Of a DNA stretch of 64,000 nt, positions 9,631 through 41,772 are shown piece by piece (position 1 is the first letter of the stretch; each line of letters begins with the position of its first letter). Both the position numbers and the translations under genes were made by a program. The stretch is from the NCBI GenBank assembly GCA_946548065.1, contig CAMNPM010000002.1:1-64000 (forward strand). Direction: 5' to 3'. The notes under the pieces were generated by a model. It saw only the letters and a program-made list of their open reading frames with translations, was not told the origin of the DNA and made no database searches. Source of the stretch: an uncultured Prevotella sp. Lineage in GTDB: Bacteria; Bacteroidota; Bacteroidia; Bacteroidales; Bacteroidaceae.

Positions 9631-9686
9631 ACACTCCTTTGATGCAAAAAATCCGCAAAAGTTAAATTTGATATGTTTTTTTTTTG

Positions 9687-9694
9687 TACCTTTG
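9687..9694 (+). promoter_or_regulatory. Bacteroidetes -7 box TACCTTTG upstream of lptB
   Basis: TAnnTTTG with TTTG about 20 bp upstream; implies start at 9703. Confidence 0.65.
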
Positions 9695-9702
9695 CACCCA
9701 CT

Positions 9703-10551
9703 ATGGACGAAACGAAGAATAATCAGGTGGAAGAGCCTCAAAAGGAACCAGAGCGCTTGGTGTTGCGTACCGAGGGTTTGGTGAAGATATATGGCAAGCG
9801 CACGGTGGTAAACGACGTGTCGTTTGATGTGAAGCAGGGTGAGATTGTTGGTCTGCTGGGTCCCAACGGTGCGGGTAAGACCACCTCGTTCTATATGACA
9901 ACGGGGCTTATCGTTCCTAACAGCGGACATATTTACCTGGGCGACGAGGAGGTGACTTCTTATCCTGTCTACAAGCGTGCCCGTGCTGGGATAGGCTATC
10001 TGGCTCAGGAGGCCTCGGTGTTCCGTAAGATGTCAGTCGAGGATAATATCTTGTCAGTGCTTCAGATGACGGGCAAGCCCCGTGACTATCAGATGGAGAA
10101 GCTGGAGAGTCTGATCAAGGAGTTTCGTCTGCAGAAGGTTCGTAAGAATACAGGTGACCGTCTGTCCGGTGGTGAGCGCCGTCGTACGGAGATAGCCCGC
10201 TGCCTGGCCATAGAACCCAAGTTCATCATGCTCGACGAACCCTTTGCGGGTGTCGACCCGATAGCCGTGGAGGACATCCAGCAGATAGTGTGGCAGTTGA
10301 AGTATCGTAATATCGGTATTCTGATTACCGACCATAATGTGCACGAGACGCTGAATATTACTGACCGCGCCTATCTGTTGTTCGAGGGACGTATACTCTT
10401 CAAGGGTTCTCCTGAGGAACTGGCTGTCAATCCTATCGTGAAGGAGAAGTATCTTGGTACCAACTTCGTGTTGCAGCGTAAAGATTTTGCCAAGATGGAA
10501 GAGCTGCGCCGCAAGAAGTGGATGGACGAGGAGGAAGAAGCCAACCGCTGA
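9703..10551 (+). CDS. lptB: LPS export ABC transporter ATP-binding protein
   Basis: [54 protein letters not shown]. Confidence 0.95.
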
Positions 10552-10645
10552 CGATAGCGAGTGGTAGACAGCGGCAAATTTTTAACAAAAACGAAAATAA
10601 CATTAAAAAGTGAGGCCATTGTTTTGTGCTTCGCATAAATATTTG

Positions 10646-10653
10646 TACCTTTG
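10646..10653 (+). promoter_or_regulatory. -7 box TACCTTTG upstream of tig
   Basis: TAnnTTTG; lies inside the over-extended track ORF, supporting the 10689 start. Confidence 0.65.
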
Positions 10654-10688
10654 CACGCTCAAACGGACATTATATAAAAAAGACAAAG

Positions 10689-12035
10689 ATGAATATCACA
10701 TTTGAAGCTCCCGACAAGGTGAATGGCCTGATGACCATTACACTGGAGAAAGCAGACTACCAGGGAGAGGTAGACAAGACACTGAAAGACTATCGTAAGC
10801 GTGCCAATGTTCCAGGATTCCGTCCTGGACAGGCTCCGATGAGTCTTATTCAGCGTCAGTACGGTCCTTCTGTCAAGTTGGACGTGGTGAACAAAATGCT
10901 GGGTGAGAAGCTGTACGGTTACATCCAGGAGAACAAGATACAGATGTTGGGCGAGCCCTTGGCCAGTGAGCAGCAGGTTCCTCAGGATTTAGAGAAGGAC
11001 GAGACCCTGACTTTCAAGTTCGATATTGCCGTAGCTCCAGAGTTCAAGGCAGAGCTGACCGGTAAGGACAAGGTGGACTATTACAACATCACTGTCGATG
11101 ACAAGCTGATAGACCAGCAGGTAGAGATGTATCAGAACCGTAGCGGGCAGTATGAGAAGGTTGAGCAGTATGATGCTGAGCAGCGCGATATGCTGAAGGG
11201 CGACTTGCGTGAGTTGGACGGAAGCATAGAGGTGGCTGATGCAGTGTTGATGCCCCAATATATTAAGGTTGAAGACCAGAAGAAGTTGTTCGACGGTTCT
11301 AAGTTGGGCGATGTCATCACTTGGAATCCCCGTAAGGCTTATCCTGAGAGCGACGTTGAGGTGAGCTCGTTGCTGAAGATTGAGAAGGATGACGTGAAGA
11401 ATCACGAGGGTGACTTTACCTTCCAGATTACGGAGGTCAGCCGTTTCACCAAGGCTCCCGTCGACCAGAAGTTGTTCGATCAGGCCTTTGGCGAGGGTGC
11501 CGTGAAGACTGAGGACGAGTTCCGCCAGAAGATCAAGGAGATGATTGCTGCCCAGTTCAAGACTGACTCAGACTATAAGTTCCTGCTCGATGTTCGTGCA
11601 CATATGGAGGAGAAGGTTGGCAAGCTGGAATTCCCTGAGGCCCTACTGAAGCGTGTGATGAAGCTTAACAACAAGGACCGCAAGGATGTGGACGAATACG
11701 TGGAGAAGAACTTCGAGCTGAGCATCAAGGAGCTCGGCTGGCACCTCATCAAGGAGCAGCTGGTAGCCGCTCAGGGTATCAAGGTAGAAAACGACGACTT
11801 GAAACAGGTTGCTAAAGAGGCCGCCCGTGCACAGTTTGCCCAGTATGGTATGTCGAATGTCCCTGAGGAGTATCTGGACAACTATGCTCAGGAGATGCTG
11901 AAGAAGCGTGAGAACGTGGATGGCCTCGTAGATCGTGCTGTGGATATCAAGCTGACCGCCGCCCTGAAGCAAGTGGTGAAGCTGAACGAGAAAGACATCA
12001 CGATGGAGGAATTCCAGAAGATGTTGCAAGCATAA
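10689..12035 (+). CDS. tig: Trigger factor
   Basis: N-terminal ribosome-binding VPGFRPGQAPMSLIQRQYG, length and C-terminal helical arms. Confidence 0.93.
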   Translation: MNITFEAPDKVNGLMTITLEKADYQGEVDKTLKDYRKRANVPGFRPGQAPMSLIQRQYGPSVKLDVVNKMLGEKLYGYIQENKIQMLGEPLASEQQVPQDLEKDETLTFKFDIAVAPEFKAELTGKDKVDYYNITVDDKLIDQQVEMYQNRSGQYEKVEQYDAEQRDMLKGDLRELDGSIEVADAVLMPQYIKVEDQKKLFDGSKLGDVITWNPRKAYPESDVEVSSLLKIEKDDVKNHEGDFTFQITEVSRFTKAPVDQKLFDQAFGEGAVKTEDEFRQKIKEMIAAQFKTDSDYKFLLDVRAHMEEKVGKLEFPEALLKRVMKLNNKDRKDVDEYVEKNFELSIKELGWHLIKEQLVAAQGIKVENDDLKQVAKEAARAQFAQYGMSNVPEEYLDNYAQEMLKKRENVDGLVDRAVDIKLTAALKQVVKLNEKDITMEEFQKMLQA

Positions 12036-27493: not shown

Positions 27494-28831
27494 TTATACC
27501 ACTCCCTGTGCCAGCATGGCTTTGGCCACCTTCATGAATCCGGCAACGTTGGCGCCCTTGACATAGTTGACGTAGTCGCCTTCCTTGCCGTACTTCACGC
27601 ATTGCTCGTGAATGCCCGACATGATGTGGTGCAGGTGCTGGTCTACCTCCTCGCCGGTCCAGGCGATGCGCATCGAGTTCTGCGTCATCTCCAGTCCGCT
27701 GGTAGCCACACCGCCTGCATTCACCGCTTTGCCTGGGGCAAACAGCTGGTGGGCGGCAATAAACTTGTTGACGGCCTCTGCCGTGCATCCCATGTTGCTG
27801 ACCTCAGCCACGCACAACGGCTTCTGTGCCAGTATCATGTCGGCATCGTCGCCGTTCAGCTCGTTCTGGGTGGCACAGGGCAGATAGATGTCGGCCTTCT
27901 GCTCCCACGGCTTCTTGCCTTCATAGAATGTCGAGCCTGGGAACTCGTCAGCGTATGGCTGGCAGATGTCGTTGCCCGAGGCGCGCAGCTCCAGCAGGTA
28001 GTCTATCTTCTCCTCATCCAGTCCGGCGGGGTCGTAGATGTAGCCGTCGGGTCCGGAGATGGTAATCACCTTGGCTCCCAGCTCGGTAGCCTTCTTGGCA
28101 GCGCCCCATGCCACATTGCCGAAGCCCGACAGGGCCACCGTCTTGCCTTTGATTTCCAACCCGTGCTCCTGCATCATCTGGTGTACAAAGTACAGTGCAC
28201 CGTATCCGGTAGCCTCCGGGCGCAGTATGGAGCCTCCCCATTCCATTCCCTTGCCTGTGAGGGTGGCACCACGGAATTCTGAGGTCAGCTTCTTGTACAT
28301 GCCGAAGAGGTAGCCAATCTCGCGTCCGCCTACACCGATGTCGCCGGCCGGTACGTCCATATCGGGGCCAATCACCTTGTACAGCTCCCACATGAAGGCT
28401 TGGCAGAAGCGCATGATCTCAGCATCGCTCTTGCCGCGTGGCGAGAAGTCGGAGCCGCCCTTGCCGCCGCCCATAGGCAGCGTGGTGAGCGCATTCTTGA
28501 AGGTCTGCTCGAAGCCCAGGAACTTCAGGATGCTCAGGTTTACTGACGAGTGGAAGCGCAGTCCTCCCTTGTATGGTCCGATGGCACTGTTGAACTGCAC
28601 ACGGTAGCCTATGTTCACCTGCACCTCGCCCTTGTCGTCGACCCAGGGCACACGGAAGGTGATGATGCGTTCTGGTTCTACAATACGTTCCACAATCTTG
28701 GCTTTCTCGAACTCCGGATGCTGGTTGTAAACGTCTTTGATGGACTCCAGCACCTCGCGCACTGCTTGCAGGAACTCTACTTCGCCCGGATGTTTCTTCT
28801 CCAGGTCTTGCATGATTTTCTCTACGTTCAT
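27494..28831 (-). CDS. gdhA: NADP-specific glutamate dehydrogenase
   Basis: PMGGGKGGSDFSPRGKSDAEIMRFCQAFM, VPAGDIGVGGREIG, GFGNVAWGAA. Confidence 0.97.
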   Translation of the reverse strand: MNVEKIMQDLEKKHPGEVEFLQAVREVLESIKDVYNQHPEFEKAKIVERIVEPERIITFRVPWVDDKGEVQVNIGYRVQFNSAIGPYKGGLRFHSSVNLSILKFLGFEQTFKNALTTLPMGGGKGGSDFSPRGKSDAEIMRFCQAFMWELYKVIGPDMDVPAGDIGVGGREIGYLFGMYKKLTSEFRGATLTGKGMEWGGSILRPEATGYGALYFVHQMMQEHGLEIKGKTVALSGFGNVAWGAAKKATELGAKVITISGPDGYIYDPAGLDEEKIDYLLELRASGNDICQPYADEFPGSTFYEGKKPWEQKADIYLPCATQNELNGDDADMILAQKPLCVAEVSNMGCTAEAVNKFIAAHQLFAPGKAVNAGGVATSGLEMTQNSMRIAWTGEEVDQHLHHIMSGIHEQCVKYGKEGDYVNYVKGANVAGFMKVAKAMLAQGVV

Positions 28832-31747: not shown

Positions 31748-32782
31748 ATGAAAAAATTATTCCTTTCTATGATTGCTATGGCCGCCTCAGTGGTGGGCTA
31801 TGCACAAGTGACAGACGCTGTGACCGCCACGCTGCAGGCTGGCGAGACCACCACCGTGTACTATGGCTACGATGCCTTCAAGGATGCCATCGCGGCAGCA
31901 CCCACAGACGTTGTAGGCATCATCACCCTGTCGCCAGGAGCCTTCAACAATCCTGGCAATATCTCTAAGAGTGTGAAAATCTATGGTGCTGGATTCCAGG
32001 ACGATACGGCCAACAATATCAGTGCCACCAGCGTGACGGGCGACTTGAACATCGTCAGCACCACTGAGGTGTCGCCCGTCGTTCGTATCGAGGGTGTCAA
32101 ATTCGTTAGCAATTGTGTGTTGAAGGGCTCTCAAACCATTACAGGAACGGAAATCGTGAAATGTGGCTTTGGGACGTTTTATAATTCGGTCGCAACGGAC
32201 AATACAATTATCCGACAGTCTTACTTCAGTGGTAATATTGATGGAGAAAGCAGGCTTGCTACACATTTTCTGGTTTCAAATTGTTATTTTAATAGAATTG
32301 GTTGGTTTAGTGCTGGTAGTGACGTCGCTGTACACCATTGTATCTTAAAAGAGGGTTATTATGGACATGGCCCTTATTTCTATTATGGAAATATCATAAA
32401 TAATGACGGTTCATATTCTATCGATGCTGGTGCCACCTGTCAATATAATGTGAGTTCAACTTGGAAGTTGAGTAATGGTGGTAATAATGTCTTAATAGGA
32501 AACTATGACAAATCTCAGTGGACAAATTTCAAGACGCTGTTTGCTGATGGTCAGGATAACCTGAATTACCTGGATGACTCTGGCAATCCCCGTACCTGGA
32601 CGTTGGCTGCTCCCTCAACCTATGTTGACCAAGAGGGTACGCCGTGCGGTGTGACCGGCGGCAACTTCCCCTGGAATCCCACGCCTGCTACCCCTCGCAT
32701 CACCAGCACCACGGTGGATGCCAAGACGGTGCCTGGCACACTGAAGGTAAGCATCACGGCCGTAGCTGGAAGTGCAGACTAA
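31748..32782 (+). CDS. Secreted hypothetical protein (possible beta-helix), composition mosaic
   Basis: Signal peptide MKKLFLSMIAMAASVVGYAQ; repeat-like Asn/Gly-rich body; AT-rich central part. Confidence 0.6.
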   Translation: MKKLFLSMIAMAASVVGYAQVTDAVTATLQAGETTTVYYGYDAFKDAIAAAPTDVVGIITLSPGAFNNPGNISKSVKIYGAGFQDDTANNISATSVTGDLNIVSTTEVSPVVRIEGVKFVSNCVLKGSQTITGTEIVKCGFGTFYNSVATDNTIIRQSYFSGNIDGESRLATHFLVSNCYFNRIGWFSAGSDVAVHHCILKEGYYGHGPYFYYGNIINNDGSYSIDAGATCQYNVSSTWKLSNGGNNVLIGNYDKSQWTNFKTLFADGQDNLNYLDDSGNPRTWTLAAPSTYVDQEGTPCGVTGGNFPWNPTPATPRITSTTVDAKTVPGTLKVSITAVAGSAD

Positions 32783-32804
32783 TCACCCTAAACAGAGACA
32801 GACA

Positions 32805-35800
32805 ATGAACAGAACCAGATATTTAGGACTGTCTTTGCTGGCTTTGCTCTGTTACATGACGGCTGTGGCGCAGACACCACCCACCGTCACGAAGTGTGAG
32901 TACTGGATAGACCAGCAATTTGGCAGTCGTACAACAGCAGAGATGACGGGCACCACCTGGAACTCGTCCATCGACATATCGGGGCTCAGCATAGGACTGC
33001 ATAGCATCGCCTTCCGCGTTGTCGACAGTAACAACTTGTACAGTTCTGTGCAGGTGAGGAACTTCCTGAAGGTGTCAGGCACAAGCTCTGGCGGTGCCTC
33101 ACTGAAGACCTATGAGTACTGGATAGACCAGGACTTCGCCCACAAGAAGAGCGGTACGGTACCCTCAGGCGGCGTTGTCAACATCGACGAGGACATCTCT
33201 GGCCTGAGCAACGGCCTGCACAGCATTGCCCTGCGCGTGATTGACGCAGACGATGTGGTGAGCAGTGTCGTGGTGAGGAACTTCCTGAAGGTGTCAGGCA
33301 CAAGCTCTGGCGGTGCCTCACTGAAGACCTATGAGTACTGGATAGACCAGGACTTCGCCCACAAGAAGAGCGGTACGGTACCCTCAGGCGGCGTTGTCAA
33401 CATCGACGAGGACATCTCTGGCCTGAGCAACGGCCTGCACAGCATTGCCCTGCGCGTGATTGACGCAGACGATGTGGTGAGCAGTGTCGTGGTGAAGAAC
33501 TTCCTGAAGGTGGCAGGCGCAGCCGGAGGCAGTGCGCTGCAGACCTACGAGTACTGGATAGACCAGGACTTCGCCCACAAGATGGGTGGCGAGGTACCCA
33601 CTGGCGGTGTCATCAATATCGACGAAGACATCTCTGGCCTGAGCAACGGCCTGCACAGCATCGCCCTGCGCGTGATTGACGCGAGCGGCGCGGTGAGCGG
33701 CGTGGTGGTGAAGAACTTCCTGAAGGTGGAGTCTGCAGGAGGAGGCAACGCCCTGCAGACTTATGAGTACTGGATAGACGAGGCCTTCGCTGAGCGACAG
33801 AGTGCTGCTGTGCCTGATGGCGGAGTGGTAGACCTCAACCTCGACATCTCAGCCCTGAGCAACGGTATACACTCGTTTAACTACCTGGTGCGCGACAAGG
33901 CAGGACTGGCCTCTGCCCCCATCACCAAGCACTTCCTGGTGAAGAAACTGGAGGGTGGCGACAAGCTCGTGGGCATCGACTACTGGATCAACGGAGGCAC
34001 ACGCCAGCGCATCGCCATCGACCCGGCAGCAGCCAACATCGACAGAGACGACGTGGTGATACCGCTCGACGGACTGACACCCAGCAGCATCGCTGCCGAC
34101 TATACCTTCGACGTGACGACGAAGAAGGTGGTGACCAAGGAGGACATCACCGTAGGACTGCAGGTGTTCAACGATGCTGAGGTAGGCTCTGAGGCTGTGG
34201 AGAAGACTATCGAGGACTTTGCCTTCACCGTAGACCCGCAGCTGGTGGCGCTCACCAACGAGGCTACGTCGACAAAGGCAGCTCCCAAGGGCGGAGTTGT
34301 GCAGGGCTTCAGCTATGCGGGAGCCGTAGGCGACTCGCTGCACTGGGAGGTGACAGGCTCCGACGCGAAGCTTGACTTCAAGGACGCTGCGGGCAATGCC
34401 ATCACGCCCGTGGCGAAGACCATTGGCGACAAGACGGTGCTCGTGATGAAGCTGCCTACTACGGAGGTCTACCTGCTGGCCTATGGTGCCACCGCTGACG
34501 ATGACCTGACGGTGAAGGTGGCGCAGCCCATAGACATCACCGTCAATGCAGCCACACGCGAGTATGGCGATGCCAACCCGGCATTCAGCTACACCAGTAC
34601 GGGAGCGGCCCTGCTGGGCGAGGTAGCCTACGTGACTACGGCCAATGCCAGCTCGCCAGCAGGCAACTATGCGGTAGACATAGACGCGACAGCCATCACC
34701 AACTCGTGGGTCACCCTGCATAGCGGTACGCTGACCGTCACCAAGGCCAAGCTGACCGTTGGCGTGACGGATGTCACCATCACGCAGGGCGAGGCGCTGC
34801 CCGTCTTCACGCTGACCTATAGCGGATTCAAGAACGGCGAGGACGAGACGGTGCTGACCACCCAGCCCACCGTGACCACCGATGCCACCAGCAGCTCGCC
34901 AGCAGGCGACTACGTGCTGACCCCAGGCGGTGGCGAGGCTGCCAACTACGACTTTGAGTACACCAACGGCAAGCTGACCATCAAGGCTGCCGAGCCCGTG
35001 ACACCTCCGACACCCGTGACGCAGGACATCAGCAAGGGAGGCACGGTGGCACAGATAGCCGACGTGCCGTATAGCGGCGAGGAGCTGAGGCCTGCCGTAG
35101 AGGTGAGGTATGGCGGCAAGCTGCTGACGGAGGGCATAGACTACTTCCTGTCGTACAGCGACAACGTGGACGTAGGAACGGCAACAGTCTTCATCTCAGG
35201 CATGGGTGACTACAGTGGTGACGTGCGCACCACGTTCACCATCGTGCTGCCCGTCAACGAGGAGACGTTCCCCGACGGCAACCTTCGCAGCTATATAGAG
35301 AACCAGGGCAGCGGTGCCGACGACATACTGACGCCCAGCGAACTGGCCGACATCACCCACCTCTACCTGATGGGTATGGGCATCAGCAACCTGTCGAGCA
35401 TCCGCTTCTTTGGTAAGCTGGAGTACCTGAACTGCCGCAACAACCAGCTGACGGTCCTCGACCTGTCGGGCAACCCGCTGCTGACGGAACTGCACATCGA
35501 GAACAACGCCATCCGGGGCGACGCGATGACTGCCCTCGTGGCCAGTCTGCCTAAGGTGAAGAGTGGCATCCTGAAAGCCCTCGACCTGTCGCAGCCCGGC
35601 TCTGTGGGAGCAGCCCTCCGGGCACCTGCCGACAATACGGTGGTGGAGGCGAACGAGATGACGCAGGAGCAGGTGGCTGCCGCCCGGGCGAAGGGCTGGA
35701 CGGTGCAGGCCCTGCTGTCGGACGGCACCTGGACCGACTACGAAGGCAGCAACGTTGTGGGCATCGACGTGCTGGGCATGGGCGACGACGCTAATGCCAA

Positions 35801-35903
35801 GTGGTACACCCTCGACGGACGTCCGCTGCCCGCCAAGCCCACCCAGAAGGGTGTCTACATCCGCAACGGACGCAAGGTGGTCGTGAGTAAAGTACAAAAA
35901 TAA
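32805..35903 (+). CDS. Large secreted multi-domain protein: YEYWID repeats, MBG-like domains, LRR-like segment, WYTLDGR-type C-terminus
   Basis: Signal peptide; tandem about 72-73-aa repeats; MBG-type REYGDANPAFSYT; LRR LEYLNCRNNQLTVLDLSGNPLLTELHIENN; C-terminal WYTLDGRPLPAKPTQKGVYIRNGRKVVV. Confidence 0.85.
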   Translation: MNRTRYLGLSLLALLCYMTAVAQTPPTVTKCEYWIDQQFGSRTTAEMTGTTWNSSIDISGLSIGLHSIAFRVVDSNNLYSSVQVRNFLKVSGTSSGGASLKTYEYWIDQDFAHKKSGTVPSGGVVNIDEDISGLSNGLHSIALRVIDADDVVSSVVVRNFLKVSGTSSGGASLKTYEYWIDQDFAHKKSGTVPSGGVVNIDEDISGLSNGLHSIALRVIDADDVVSSVVVKNFLKVAGAAGGSALQTYEYWIDQDFAHKMGGEVPTGGVINIDEDISGLSNGLHSIALRVIDASGAVSGVVVKNFLKVESAGGGNALQTYEYWIDEAFAERQSAAVPDGGVVDLNLDISALSNGIHSFNYLVRDKAGLASAPITKHFLVKKLEGGDKLVGIDYWINGGTRQRIAIDPAAANIDRDDVVIPLDGLTPSSIAADYTFDVTTKKVVTKEDITVGLQVFNDAEVGSEAVEKTIEDFAFTVDPQLVALTNEATSTKAAPKGGVVQGFSYAGAVGDSLHWEVTGSDAKLDFKDAAGNAITPVAKTIGDKTVLVMKLPTTEVYLLAYGATADDDLTVKVAQPIDITVNAATREYGDANPAFSYTSTGAALLGEVAYVTTANASSPAGNYAVDIDATAITNSWVTLHSGTLTVTKAKLTVGVTDVTITQGEALPVFTLTYSGFKNGEDETVLTTQPTVTTDATSSSPAGDYVLTPGGGEAANYDFEYTNGKLTIKAAEPVTPPTPVTQDISKGGTVAQIADVPYSGEELRPAVEVRYGGKLLTEGIDYFLSYSDNVDVGTATVFISGMGDYSGDVRTTFTIVLPVNEETFPDGNLRSYIENQGSGADDILTPSELADITHLYLMGMGISNLSSIRFFGKLEYLNCRNNQLTVLDLSGNPLLTELHIENNAIRGDAMTALVASLPKVKSGILKALDLSQPGSVGAALRAPADNTVVEANEMTQEQVAAARAKGWTVQALLSDGTWTDYEGSNVVGIDVLGMGDDANAKWYTLDGRPLPAKPTQKGVYIRNGRKVVVSKVQK
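32893..33957 (+). repeat. Intragenic tandem repeats (about 216-219 bp), two central copies apparently identical
   Basis: 33053-33271 and 33272-33490 read identical; diverged copies on both sides. Confidence 0.9.
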
Positions 35904-35964: not shown

Positions 35965-38900
35965 ATGATGTATGAACCGATGAGCGTGACGAATACCAAT
36001 ATACCACAGGAGTTTAACAACTTCTTCCTGAAAGACGTTTCGTTTGTAAACCTGATGACGAAGCGCATCTGCAACATCCTGATAGTGGCCAATCCCTACG
36101 ATGCCTTTATGCTGGAGGACGACGGACGTATTGACGAGAAGCTGTTCGACGAGTATATGGAGCTGGGACTGCGCTATCCGCCTACGTTCACCCAGGTGTC
36201 AACAACGGAAGAGGCCAGCCGCGTGCTGGAGACCACCGACATCGACCTGGTGATCTGCATGCCTGGCAATGCCGACAACGACGCCTTCGCCGTAGCGCGC
36301 GACGTGAAGATGATGGCTCCCCACGTGCCGTGTGTGGTGCTGACTCCCTTCTCGCACGGCATCACCAAGCGCATAGAGCACGAGGACATGACCATCTTCG
36401 ACTACGTGTTCTGCTGGCTGGGCAACACCAACCTCATCCTGAGCATCATCAAGCTCATAGAAGACCAGATGAACATCGAGCACGACATCAAGGAGGCGGG
36501 TGTGCAGATGATTATGCTGGTGGAAGACAATATCAGGTTCTACTCCTCCGTGCTGCCCAACCTGTATAACTACATCCTGGCGCAGTCGAAGAACTTCTCC
36601 ACCGAGGCGCTGAACCCCCATGCTGCCGCACAGCGCAAGCGCGGACGACCCAAGGTGGTGCTGGCCACTACCTACGAGGAGGCCATGCACTGGTATGAGA
36701 TGTATCACGACAACGTGCTGGGCGTCATCTCCGACACGCGATTCCCCATGAAGGGTGTCAACGGGCGGCTGGCCCACGTGGAGGAGGGCGACCCAGAGGC
36801 CGGACTGAAGCTGCTGCGCGAAATCAGACGCAGGGACGAGTACGTGCCGCTCATCCTGCAGAGCTCGGAGATTGTGAACAAGGAGAAGGCCGAGAAGGAG
36901 GGCTTCCGCTTCATCGACAAGAACTCGAAGAAGATGAACGTCGACCTGCGGAAGCTGATAGAGGAGCACATGGGCTTTGGCGACTTCGTGTTCCGCGACC
37001 CGAAGACCAAGGAGGAGGTGCTGCGCGTGAGCTCACTGAAGGAGCTACAGGACAACATCTTCAAGGTGCCTAACGACTCGATGCTCTACCACATCTCGCG
37101 CAACCACATGAGCCGCTGGCTCTGCGCAAGGGCCATCTTCCCCGTGTCGGCATTCCTGAAGAACGTCACCTGGCACAAGCTGCAGGACGTGGATGCCCAC
37201 CGGCAGATTATCTTCGACGCCATTGTGCAGTACCGCCGGATGAAGAACATCGGTGTGGTGGCTGTCTTCGACCGTCTGAAGTTCGACCGCTATGCCCACT
37301 TCGCCCGCATCGGCGACGGCTCGTTGGGAGGCAAGGGGCGCGGACTGGCCTTCCTGGACAACATCATCAAGCGACACCCGGAGCTGAACCACTTCGACAA
37401 CGCCACCGTGCAGATACCCAAGACGGTGGTGCTGTGTACCGACTTCTTCGACGAGTTCATGGACAAGAACAACCTGTGGGGCATTGCGCTGAGCGACGCC
37501 TCGGACGAGGAGATACTGCAGCACTTCCTGAAGGCACAGCTGCCCGATGCACTGATAGCCGACTTCTTTACCTTCTTCGATGCGGTGAAGAGCCCCATCG
37601 CGGTCAGAAGCTCGTCGCTGCTCGAAGACTCCCACTACCAGCCCTTCGCAGGCATCTACTCCACCTATATGATTCCCTACCTGGACGACAAGTACGAGAT
37701 GCTGCGCATGCTGGCCTGTGCCATCAAGGGTGTCTATGCCTCTGTGTACTACAAGGACTCGAAGGCCTATATGACGGCTACGTCGAACGTGATAGACCAG
37801 GAGAAAATGGCGGTGATACTGCAGGAGGTGGTGGGCAAACAGTATGGCGAGCGTTTCTATCCCACCTTCTCGGGGGTGCTGCGCTCGCTGAACTACTACC
37901 CCATAGGCGACGAGCTGGCGGAAGAGGGCATCGCCTCGCTGGCACTGGGACTGGGCAAGTATATCGTGGACGGTGGACAGACGCTGCGCGTGAGTCCCTA
38001 TCACCCCAAGCAGGTGCTGCAAACCTCTGAGCTGGATACGGCACTGAAAGAGACCCAGACCCGCTTCTACGCTCTGAACATGAGCCACGTGGGCGACGAC
38101 TTCAAGGTGGACGACGGCTTCAACATTCTGAACCTCAGGGTGAAGGAGGCCGACAAGGACGGAGCACTGAATGGCATCGCGTCGACCTACGACCCCAACG
38201 ACCAGATTATCCGCGACGGCATCTATGAGGGAGGACGCAAAGTAATCTCCTTCTCCGGGGTGCTGCAGCACGGCATCTTCCCGCTGCCAGAGATACTGCA
38301 GCTGTCGCAGAAATACGGGTCGGAGGAGATGCGTCGGCCCGTGGAGATTGAGTTTGCCTGCAACCTGCAAACCGCCCCTACGGGGGGAGGTGTGGAGGGG
38401 GCTTTCTACCTGCTGCAGATAAGGCCCATCGTCGACTCCAAGCAGGTGCTGGACGAAGACCTGGCTGCCATTCCCGACGAACAGTGCCTGCTGCGCTCGC
38501 ACAACTCGCTGGGACACGGCATCTCGGAGGATGTGGTGGACGTGGTGTATGTGAAGACCGACGACGACTTCACGGCAGCCAACAATCTCAAGATAGCTGA
38601 CGAGATAGAGCAGATCAACCGTCGGTTCCTGGCTGAGGACAAGAACTACGTGCTGATAGGTCCTGGACGATGGGGGTCGAGCGACTACTGGCTGGGCATA
38701 CCCGTCAAGTGGCCGCACATCTCGGCAGCGCGCGTCATCGTGGAGGCGGGCTTGAAGAACTACCACGTAGACCCCTCGCAGGGTACGCACTTCTTCCAGA
38801 ACCTGACCTCGTTTGGAGTGGGCTACTTCACCGTCAACACCTATACGGGCGACGGTGTGCTGCAGAAGGATATCCTCGACAGCATGCCGGCAGTGGAAGA

Positions 38901-38997
38901 AACGGAGTTCGTGCGCCACGTGCGCTTCGACAAACCCCTGAAGATCATGATGGACGGGAAAAAGCAGCACGGAGTAGTGTTGCTGCCGTCAGACTGA
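35965..38997 (+). CDS. Tandem receiver-like domains + pyruvate phosphate dikinase-type ATP-grasp domain protein
   Basis: Second REC-like domain with VEDN, ISD, QSS, DKNS; PPDK_N motifs GSLGGKGRGLAFL, IAVRSSSLLEDS, FLLQIRP-like YLLQIRP; no GGxTSHA swivelling-His motif seen. Confidence 0.8.
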   Translation: MMYEPMSVTNTNIPQEFNNFFLKDVSFVNLMTKRICNILIVANPYDAFMLEDDGRIDEKLFDEYMELGLRYPPTFTQVSTTEEASRVLETTDIDLVICMPGNADNDAFAVARDVKMMAPHVPCVVLTPFSHGITKRIEHEDMTIFDYVFCWLGNTNLILSIIKLIEDQMNIEHDIKEAGVQMIMLVEDNIRFYSSVLPNLYNYILAQSKNFSTEALNPHAAAQRKRGRPKVVLATTYEEAMHWYEMYHDNVLGVISDTRFPMKGVNGRLAHVEEGDPEAGLKLLREIRRRDEYVPLILQSSEIVNKEKAEKEGFRFIDKNSKKMNVDLRKLIEEHMGFGDFVFRDPKTKEEVLRVSSLKELQDNIFKVPNDSMLYHISRNHMSRWLCARAIFPVSAFLKNVTWHKLQDVDAHRQIIFDAIVQYRRMKNIGVVAVFDRLKFDRYAHFARIGDGSLGGKGRGLAFLDNIIKRHPELNHFDNATVQIPKTVVLCTDFFDEFMDKNNLWGIALSDASDEEILQHFLKAQLPDALIADFFTFFDAVKSPIAVRSSSLLEDSHYQPFAGIYSTYMIPYLDDKYEMLRMLACAIKGVYASVYYKDSKAYMTATSNVIDQEKMAVILQEVVGKQYGERFYPTFSGVLRSLNYYPIGDELAEEGIASLALGLGKYIVDGGQTLRVSPYHPKQVLQTSELDTALKETQTRFYALNMSHVGDDFKVDDGFNILNLRVKEADKDGALNGIASTYDPNDQIIRDGIYEGGRKVISFSGVLQHGIFPLPEILQLSQKYGSEEMRRPVEIEFACNLQTAPTGGGVEGAFYLLQIRPIVDSKQVLDEDLAAIPDEQCLLRSHNSLGHGISEDVVDVVYVKTDDDFTAANNLKIADEIEQINRRFLAEDKNYVLIGPGRWGSSDYWLGIPVKWPHISAARVIVEAGLKNYHVDPSQGTHFFQNLTSFGVGYFTVNTYTGDGVLQKDILDSMPAVEETEFVRHVRFDKPLKIMMDGKKQHGVVLLPSD
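38372..38404 (+). repeat. G-rich palindromic insertion-like segment inside the ORF (TAPTGGGVEGA)
   Basis: CCGCCCCTACGGGGGGAGGTGTGGAGGGGGCTT interrupts the conserved ...FYLLQIRP region. Confidence 0.4.
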
Positions 38998-39019
38998 ATA
39001 GCATTGAGAATAGATTAAT

Positions 39020-40687
39020 ATGAAACTAAAGAGAATGAACCATTTAAACTGCAGACTGATACTTGTTGCGGCAGCTGTCGCGACAGTAGGACTGCTGGCA
39101 TCGTGCAAGGGCGGCTGGCGACAGTTGCTCGGCAACCAAGAGTCGGTGGTCGTGAGTCCGCTGGCCAAAGAGCTGGGATACAGCAAGGAGCGGCCCCTGG
39201 TGATGGGCATGAACACCAGCTATGCGCCGCTGCAGTATGTAGACGACAAAGGACAGCCCTGCGGATACGACATGGAGTTTACCCGGCGGCTGATGCAGCG
39301 GCTGGGCATACCCTACACCTTCTCGCCCAACCACTGGGACAAGATGTCGCCTGGCATCCTGTCGGGCAAGTACGACCTGGGACTGCTGGTGTACTCGTCG
39401 TACCGCAAGGAACTGACCAACTACTCGAATGCCGTTTTCAGGCTCTACTACCAGATAGTGTACAGGAAGTCGGAATACAAGATGTTCGACTTCCGCAACC
39501 TGAAAGGCAAGAAGATAGCCTATATGAAGTCGCGTCCCGTAGGCCTGATGCTGAAGGATGCCGAGGCCGACGACTATGCCATCACCGACTTGGACAGTGC
39601 TATCGTAGACCTCTCGAAGGGGAAGTATGACGGTGTGATATGCTACCGCTTCCAGGCCAACTACTATATCGAACTGAACGGGCTGGGACGGAAGCTGCAG
39701 GCTGACGAGCTGTCGCTGCAGCCGCGCGAATACTGCTACGCCAGTCATAACAAGAAGCTCATCGACATCATTAATGCTGAGTTGAGGAACATGGAAAGCG
39801 AGGGGATTGTAGACGAGATTTACGGGCGCGATGTGGTGTCCAACTTCGACGCTATCCGCATTCCCGACTGGGTGTGGGCGTTGCTGGTGCTGCTGATCTT
39901 CGTATTCCTCATCGTCTTCAGCATCAACCGCTACCTGCTGAGCCGCAGACTGCTTATAGCCAACGCAAGGGCGGAAGAGTCGACGCGCATGAAGAGCAAC
40001 TTTATCAAGCAGATATCGCACGAGATACGGACACCGCTGAACATTCTGAGCGGCTACACGCAGGTGCTGGCATCGCCATCGGCCCAGCTGACGAACGAGG
40101 AGAAGCAGGAGATTTCTGCCCAGGTGATGGAGAGCACGGAGCGCATCACAGGACTGGTGAACAAGATGCTGGAGCTGTCGGATGTGAGCAGTCAGGTGGT
40201 GATAGTACGCAACGATGAGCTGTCGGCACGTGAGATTGCTCAGCGGGCCGTGGAGGACTCGGGCATTGCGGAAGCCAACCACCTGGAGTTTGAGATGCTG
40301 GCGGGAGAAGGGGCCGATGCAGTATTCAAGACCCACCGCCGTACTGCCATCCGCATCCTGGAGCTGTTGCTGGACAACGCGATGAAGTTTACGCGCAGGG
40401 CTGAGTCGTACCACCAGGCGTTGCAGGAGAACAAGAAAGAACGGGTGACGCTGAGCGTGAGCCGGACGGGCGACAAGGCGCGTTTCGTGGTGGAGGATAC
40501 GGGAATCGGTGTGCCTGCAAAGGATGCTGAGCGCATCTTCGACGAGTTCGTACAGCTGGACGAGTATTACGACGGTACGGGCATCGGACTGACGGTGGCC
40601 CGCAGTCTGGCGCGCCGACTGGGTGGCGACGTGGTGCTGGACACTACCTATGAGGGCGGTGCCAGATTCGTCATGACGCTGGCGTAA
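39020..40687 (+). CDS. Solute-binding (SBP_bac_3-like) membrane sensor histidine kinase
   Basis: Periplasmic MGMNTSYAPLQYVDDKGQPCGYDMEF domain, TM WALLVLLIFVFLIVF, H-box KQISHEIRTPLNIL, HATPase DTGIGVP/GIGLTVARSLARRLGG; no receiver domain. Confidence 0.88.
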   Translation: MKLKRMNHLNCRLILVAAAVATVGLLASCKGGWRQLLGNQESVVVSPLAKELGYSKERPLVMGMNTSYAPLQYVDDKGQPCGYDMEFTRRLMQRLGIPYTFSPNHWDKMSPGILSGKYDLGLLVYSSYRKELTNYSNAVFRLYYQIVYRKSEYKMFDFRNLKGKKIAYMKSRPVGLMLKDAEADDYAITDLDSAIVDLSKGKYDGVICYRFQANYYIELNGLGRKLQADELSLQPREYCYASHNKKLIDIINAELRNMESEGIVDEIYGRDVVSNFDAIRIPDWVWALLVLLIFVFLIVFSINRYLLSRRLLIANARAEESTRMKSNFIKQISHEIRTPLNILSGYTQVLASPSAQLTNEEKQEISAQVMESTERITGLVNKMLELSDVSSQVVIVRNDELSAREIAQRAVEDSGIAEANHLEFEMLAGEGADAVFKTHRRTAIRILELLLDNAMKFTRRAESYHQALQENKKERVTLSVSRTGDKARFVVEDTGIGVPAKDAERIFDEFVQLDEYYDGTGIGLTVARSLARRLGGDVVLDTTYEGGARFVMTLA

Positions 40688-40693
40688 GACTTA

Positions 40694-41680
40694 TTACTGA
40701 CCCCCGAGACGTGAGAAATACTCGATGATGTCTTCCCACGTCTTGAAGGTGTCGGAACCATATTCCAGGAGGGTGGCCATCGTGTCGCCCTCCTTCTCTT
40801 TGGCAATGAGGTAGTCGCCATAGAGCAGGTCGCGACGATAGGTATAGACGGTATGGTGCCAAGCGGGTACTCCAACATGCTCGGTGAGCCACTGGGCGGT
40901 GGGGACGTAGGCTGACGCTGGGGCGACGAAATATACCTGATAGTGCTCGATGAGCAGACGGATGGCCTTAATCATCGAAGACACGGGCTTGCGGTAGTCG
41001 TCCATCAGGCTCTCTATACCTATATATATAATAGGGCGCTGACGGTGCTCCTGAAGGTCGTCAATCCAACGGATGACAGGCACGACGGAGTGCATGAACG
41101 ACTGGTCGTTCATACGGTGTTCACCGTGAAAGTGGATAGCCTGGGGATAGACGGAGTGGAACAGGTCGTAGGTGTTGACGGTGGTGTCCTCGTCGCCAAA
41201 GAGGCCATAGACGCGCAGACGGTCGTCATCCGTCAGGCCTTCGAAGCGGTGTTCCGACTGTTCCTTATACTCCTTGACCAGTGCTTTGTCGACATAGAAC
41301 TCCTGGATGCCGTCGAGGCGCGGATTCTGAAACTGCTGGGTACCCGTCATGCCGTGAGTACGCATTGTCTCGCCCATCTCCAGTGCCGGGTTGACACAGA
41401 TGCGATAGAAACCTCGAAGCTGCTCGGCATACATACCACCCATCGAGGTGCCGATGATAAGGTCGGGCTGCTCCTCCTGACACACCTGCTGTAGTAGGGC
41501 GATGCCCTCCTGAGGGTGAATGGGAATGTCGGGGGCTACCACCTTAGCCTGTGGCATCACCTCGCGCAGACGCTTGACGGTACCCGACTGTCCGCTGCTG
41601 GCGAAGCCGTGGACATACAAGATGGTTTTTCCGGCCATCAGGTCGGGGAATTGCTTGATATAAGGATTCTCTGTATTCAT
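40694..41680 (-). CDS. YqiA-like alpha/beta hydrolase fused to C-terminal HAD/5'-nucleotidase-like domain
   Basis: ILYVHGFASSGQSGTVKRL, GTSMGG nucleophile elbow, FGDEDT, GEHRM; C-terminal YQVYFVAPAS...TYRRDLLYGDYLIAKEKEGD. Confidence 0.7.
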   Translation of the reverse strand: MNTENPYIKQFPDLMAGKTILYVHGFASSGQSGTVKRLREVMPQAKVVAPDIPIHPQEGIALLQQVCQEEQPDLIIGTSMGGMYAEQLRGFYRICVNPALEMGETMRTHGMTGTQQFQNPRLDGIQEFYVDKALVKEYKEQSEHRFEGLTDDDRLRVYGLFGDEDTTVNTYDLFHSVYPQAIHFHGEHRMNDQSFMHSVVPVIRWIDDLQEHRQRPIIYIGIESLMDDYRKPVSSMIKAIRLLIEHYQVYFVAPASAYVPTAQWLTEHVGVPAWHHTVYTYRRDLLYGDYLIAKEKEGDTMATLLEYGSDTFKTWEDIIEYFSRLGGQ

Positions 41681-41772
41681 ATTACTGTGGTATTTAGGCA
41701 GCAAAATTACAAAAAAGAAGGCAAAAAGTGAGAGTTTTATCTAAAAAACTTGCAAAAGTAAAATTAATTGCC

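Follow-up and report, generated by a model that had tools for sequence, protein, structure and literature searches.

What does a protein that joins receiver domains to a PPDK_N-type ATP-grasp domain act on, and which kinase controls it? The question is raised by a locus of an uncultured Prevotella sp., of which we analyzed a stretch of 64,000 nucleotides (the window). At positions 35965..38997 (+), the window encodes a 1010-aa protein, assigned to the PPDK_N family from its ORF, Pfam matches and relatives, and at 39020..40687 (+) a 555-aa sensor histidine kinase of the solute-binding protein (SBP) type. Both ORFs were confirmed at these positions. The PPDK-like gene was found in 55 of 60 relatives, and a search for viral homologues of its product returned none. 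The 1043-aa ORF upstream (32772-35903, +) contains several near-identical repeats (TYEYWIDQDFAHKK...NFLKV), which look recently duplicated, and its GTG start overlaps the preceding ORF.

An AlphaFold2 model of the 1010-aa protein was built from an alignment of 59 homologues (pLDDT 82.6, pTM 0.74), and residue conservation was scored over 153 full-length homologues. The model is composed of REC1, REC2, a helical linker, the ATP-grasp domain and a final domain. The domains named in the initial annotation were all recovered, but it had overlooked the final ~170 residues.

The N-terminal part forms two receiver folds at about aa 37-178 and 182-335. By Foldseek, they match the tandem receivers of PleD (E 1e-6), and the receiver fold also matches 3luf; the Pfam match to Response_reg was weak (E 0.0078). 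REC1 (36073..36498, +) is a pseudo-receiver according to the model and the homologue alignment. Residue 99 (Met99 in the window protein) is Met in 127 of the 153 homologues and Asp in none, and the phospho-site is occupied by Met or another non-acidic residue throughout. REC2 (36508..36969, +) is a complete receiver: E187, D257, S/T300 (Ser in the window protein) and K319 are conserved in 153/153 homologues and D188 in 150/153. Thus, a first receiver without phospho-Asp and a second one with a complete phospho-site, as had been read from the window sequence, hold for the family. REC2 is predicted to be the conserved phospho-acceptor, with D257 (codon at 36733..36735, +) as the acceptor residue. 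In PleD, phosphorylation takes place on the first receiver and a GGDEF domain provides the output. The 1010-aa protein resembles PleD-type regulators in its REC-REC pair, in the degeneration of one receiver and in its enzymatic output, whereas here REC2 is the intact receiver and the output is an ATP-grasp domain.

The helical linker (aa 340-430; 36982..37254, +) is DUF5752-like in some homologues: PF19027 exceeded the cut-off in the homologues of loci L037 and L093 and was weak in the window protein. It is followed by the PPDK_N ATP-grasp domain (aa 453-831; 37321..38457, +; Pfam E 1.7e-40) with the catalytic residues K457, R548, E796, Q818 and R820. K457, R548, E554, D555, E796 and Q818 were invariant in 153/153 homologues. 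The GGKG, VRSSS..ED and LQIRP motifs are shared with the ATP-grasp domains of PEP synthase, PPDK and rifampin phosphotransferase. In contrast to these enzymes, the 1010-aa protein possesses leading receivers and a C-terminal domain of unrecognized fold, and lacks the PEP-utilisers His domain and the PEP TIM barrel, neither of which was detected by Pfam at E<=1. The ORF terminates after a 172-aa non-TIM domain. The view that the protein is not a normal PEP synthase, and that its output is a PPDK-type ATP-grasp module and not a DNA-binding domain, was therefore upheld, as was the absence of a swivelling phospho-His domain and of a TIM barrel (Pfam; hhalign and Foldseek on the C-terminal domain).

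The C-terminal 'GRWGSSD' domain (about aa 839-1010; 38479..38994, +) carries the motif GPGRWGSSDxWLGIPVxW. When modelled alone, it gave a pLDDT of 91.6 and a pTM of 0.90, and Foldseek found no match among PDB structures at E<=0.001. Searches of PHROGs, NCBIfam and PDB sequences with this domain or the whole protein gave no informative family. H942 (codon at 38788..38790, +), in the motif G[ST]HFF, is the only invariant His of the protein (153/153 full-length, 8/8 short and 13/13 remote homologues). The order of secondary-structure elements and the G[ST]HFF motif resemble the swivelling phospho-His domain and its GGxTSHAA motif. A degenerate swivel domain was considered and rejected: comparison by hhalign with 18 authentic swivel domains of PPDKs gave a probability of <1%, and the isolated domain produced only weak matches to protease-associated domains (E about 0.3-0.7). 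Since neither hhalign nor Foldseek backs it, homology to the swivel domain is not claimed. We hypothesize, solely at the level of the residue, that H942 may be a phosphoryl acceptor.

The kinase gene lies 22 bp downstream on the same strand. Pfam detected SBP_bac_3 (60-268), HisKA (324-389) and HATPase_c (442-554) in its product and no receiver domain, in agreement with the initial annotation. From this arrangement, it had been proposed that the two genes form a unit in which a ligand activates the SBP kinase, the kinase phosphorylates REC2, and REC2 controls the ATP-grasp output. The close spacing, the complete kinase motifs and the complete REC2 would fit such a pathway. However, conservation of the gene pair, set beforehand as its test, failed: the kinase stood beside the PPDK-like gene only in the genome of the window. 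None of the relatives examined, 91%-identical ones among them, had it in this position. No kinase homologue adjoined the PPDK-like gene at 29 same-genus loci, some with little downstream sequence, and among 79 named loci the sole exception was a distant kinase (31%) two genes off. The SBP kinase is a member of a patchy, expanded family. A strong match (E<=1e-40, often covering only the kinase half) was obtained in 9 of 32 good-quality genomes of the genus, and the best matches were located on contigs other than that of the PPDK-like gene. A 14-kb stretch around the closest homologue (64%, L110) contained no PPDK-like gene. At five Prevotella loci (L151, L161, L163, L164 and L188), the PPDK-like gene borders directly on a UPF0227-type gene, the one that follows the kinase in the window. 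The kinase thus looks like a local insertion between the two. We rejected it as the partner of the 1010-aa protein on conservation, and the two-gene pathway is highly improbable. The gene that follows in the window (40694-41704, -) encodes a 336-aa protein with a UPF0227 (esterase-like) N-terminus and a C-terminal half without a family assignment; it is convergent with the kinase gene and 6 bp apart from it.

The conserved genomic partner is the gene for glutamate dehydrogenase (GDH). In the window, a 445-aa GDH (27494..28831, -; PF00208 9.5e-79, PF02812 9.2e-52) is encoded divergently from the PPDK-like gene, 7.1 kb away. When the neighbouring genes of 58 orthologue loci were clustered, GDH was present in 30, and the next commonest family in 8. 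Of 55 Bacteroidales genomes, 23 had a GDH within 10 kb of the PPDK-like gene, where chance predicts 0.56 for 3-Mb genomes (Poisson p about 4e-29, a value that overstates independence because the genomes are related). Of 33 genomes, most of them from other Bacteroidota classes, 27 had one within 3 kb, where 0.1 is expected. GDH was near the PPDK-like gene in 38/56 Bacteroides, 12 of which had two GDHs within 10 kb, and at 26/79 named loci. The layouts vary (divergent, convergent, codirectional, or tandem as in GDH-PPDK-GDH-PPDK-GDH), and the GDHs belong to several subfamilies. The association beyond chance is well supported.

About half of the Bacteroidales genomes had no GDH within 10 kb, some of their contigs being too short to tell. 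Among 248 Bacteroidota genomes, GDH was present in 226 and the family of the 1010-aa protein in about 40. Since many Bacteroidota thus have GDH without the PPDK-like protein, the latter is not generally required for GDH. A GDH residue that could mark a modification target was also sought. None separated the PPDK-linked GDHs from those of genomes without the PPDK-like gene, and this candidate mark was rejected; no target site on GDH is therefore suggested. A literature search that covered few subscription papers brought up no description of the GDH link or the C-terminal domain.

Variants of the protein also occur with GDH. In several genomes, a 580-aa receiver-less form, composed of the ATP-grasp and C-terminal domains, follows a 428-aa GDH in the operon. 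Because receiver-less forms exist beside GDH, these two domains constitute the core and the receivers are an add-on control. A remote PPDK_N paralogue of ~1060 aa, found in the same 428-aa GDH setting, adds a nucleotidyltransferase domain at its C-terminus (L109:7146-10337 and L227-L239; NTP_transf_2 was confirmed in L109). These paralogues mostly come directly after the second GDH (428 aa), and the 580-aa form is often placed between the two.

A longer paralogue of about 1160 aa carries an N-terminal extension (L037:5363-8845, L039:9268-12759 and L042:9112-12585), whose repeats we read as GAF-like. At these three loci, the gene order is korA-korB-long PPDK-short PPDK-GDH, so that it adjoins 2-oxoglutarate:ferredoxin oxidoreductase genes (assigned by sequence motifs). 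Elsewhere it lies beside NuoEF-like genes, and some copies have NarL-type regulators next to them. The genomic setting is thus the 2-oxoglutarate/glutamate node. At L093 (8973-11725), L094 and L097, a PAS histidine kinase and a NarL-type response regulator are encoded between two GDH-PPDK units. This kinase is a possible source of REC2 phosphorylation in that lineage.

We propose that the 1010-aa protein is a receiver-gated, ATP-dependent regulator dedicated to GDH in Bacteroidota, and give this reading about an even chance. We infer GDH as the target, a direction of effect, a role for H942 and an upstream kinase as follows. Nitrogen or carbon status would be relayed by a kinase encoded elsewhere, which would phosphorylate REC2 at D257. 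The PleD-like pair of a degenerate REC1 and a phosphorylatable REC2 would then gate the catalytic core of ATP-grasp and C-terminal domains. With ATP, the core would modify GDH or activate it, probably passing a phosphoryl group through H942. No other neighbour approaches GDH in frequency, and the residues of REC2, the ATP-grasp domain and H942 are essentially invariant, which makes the case for a GDH regulator. A caveat on the chemistry at H942 is that no relation between the C-terminal domain and the phospho-His swivel domain could be detected.

The linkage on which the regulator reading draws could also arise if nitrogen genes are controlled together, and need not indicate a physical target. 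On that account, the PPDK-like gene would cluster with GDH only through a common nitrogen regulon, and the nitrogen genes of P. ruminicola are indeed strongly ammonium-responsive (PMC5552732); yet GDH alone stands out among the recurrent neighbours, and we consider this very unlikely. The protein might instead bind its partner without changing it covalently, as a nucleotide sensor or assembly factor whose ATP-grasp domain binds ATP/AMP and which activates or holds GDH. The GDH linkage and the lack of a detectable phospho-His swivel fold speak for this reading. However, invariance of K457, R548, E796 and Q818 in 153 sequences would be unusual for a pure sensor, and a non-catalytic role seems rather unlikely.

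A metabolic role, in which a receiver-regulated ATP-grasp ligase or dikinase acts on glutamate, 2-oxoglutarate or a related carboxylate and is linked to GDH by pathway, appears quite unlikely. The intact ATP-grasp domain, the 2-oxoglutarate oxidoreductase among the neighbours and a weak match to PigC, a PPDK_N relative that is a biosynthetic ligase, all point toward an enzyme of this kind. Against it, the receivers, the DUF5752-like linker and the GAF-like N-terminal extensions are modules of signalling type, the PEP TIM barrel and swivel domain are absent, and no conserved third pathway gene accompanies GDH.

Fusions of REC to a PPDK domain have already been recorded in a census (PMC5847659), evidently of the same architecture class; the census entry itself gives the architecture only, without a partner, a function, the C-terminal domain or the GDH link. 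According to the title of Baggio and Morrison (1996), as cited in PMC4539542, GdhA activity of B. thetaiotaomicron depends on a trans-acting gene. In Bacteroides, the 3-kb PPDK-like gene is located downstream of, and convergent with, a 444-aa GDH gene, directly so in L107 and L145. In L261, the order is GDH-catalase-PPDK-GDH, with the catalase gene (9654-11114) between the 444-aa GDH and the PPDK-like gene. This catalase fits the published annotation of BT_1971. BT_1971 had been taken as the B. thetaiotaomicron orthologue of the PPDK-like gene and was rejected, since published papers call it a catalase; by analogy with L261, the gene order suggests BT_1972. In the 1996 abstract, a 3-kb downstream segment reportedly restores activity in E. 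coli. As its title and abstract present it, the 1996 factor acts on GDH and is encoded next to gdhA; one of the Bacteroides GDHs has the 3-kb PPDK-like gene among its downstream genes, and the factor and the product of this gene may hypothetically be identical. The PPDK-like protein is thus a candidate for this factor. The match would fail if the 445-aa GDH was the one cloned as gdhA, since the PPDK-like gene lies upstream of it.

GlnE/GlnD covalent control likewise is an ATP-dependent control of ammonia assimilation, and the remote paralogues carry a nucleotidyltransferase domain, whereas the 1010-aa window protein has none. In its most specific form, the proposal would make the protein a receiver-gated PPDK-type protein kinase that autophosphorylates H942 in a new C-terminal domain, then modifies GDH, replaces GlnE/GlnD-style control in gut Bacteroidota and is the missing GdhA factor; it would represent a new class of post-translational control over ammonia assimilation. 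We regard this full version as rather unlikely.

In Bacteroides and Prevotella, which dominate among gut and rumen bacteria, GDH is one of the major enzymes that assimilate ammonia. The PPDK-like family occurs in nearly all members of this group, is linked to GDH throughout the phylum and retains an intact active site; it therefore offers a testable gene and the testable residues D257, K457 and H942. It also adds to the outputs of response regulators an ATP-grasp core, which probably acts on a central metabolic enzyme and not on DNA.
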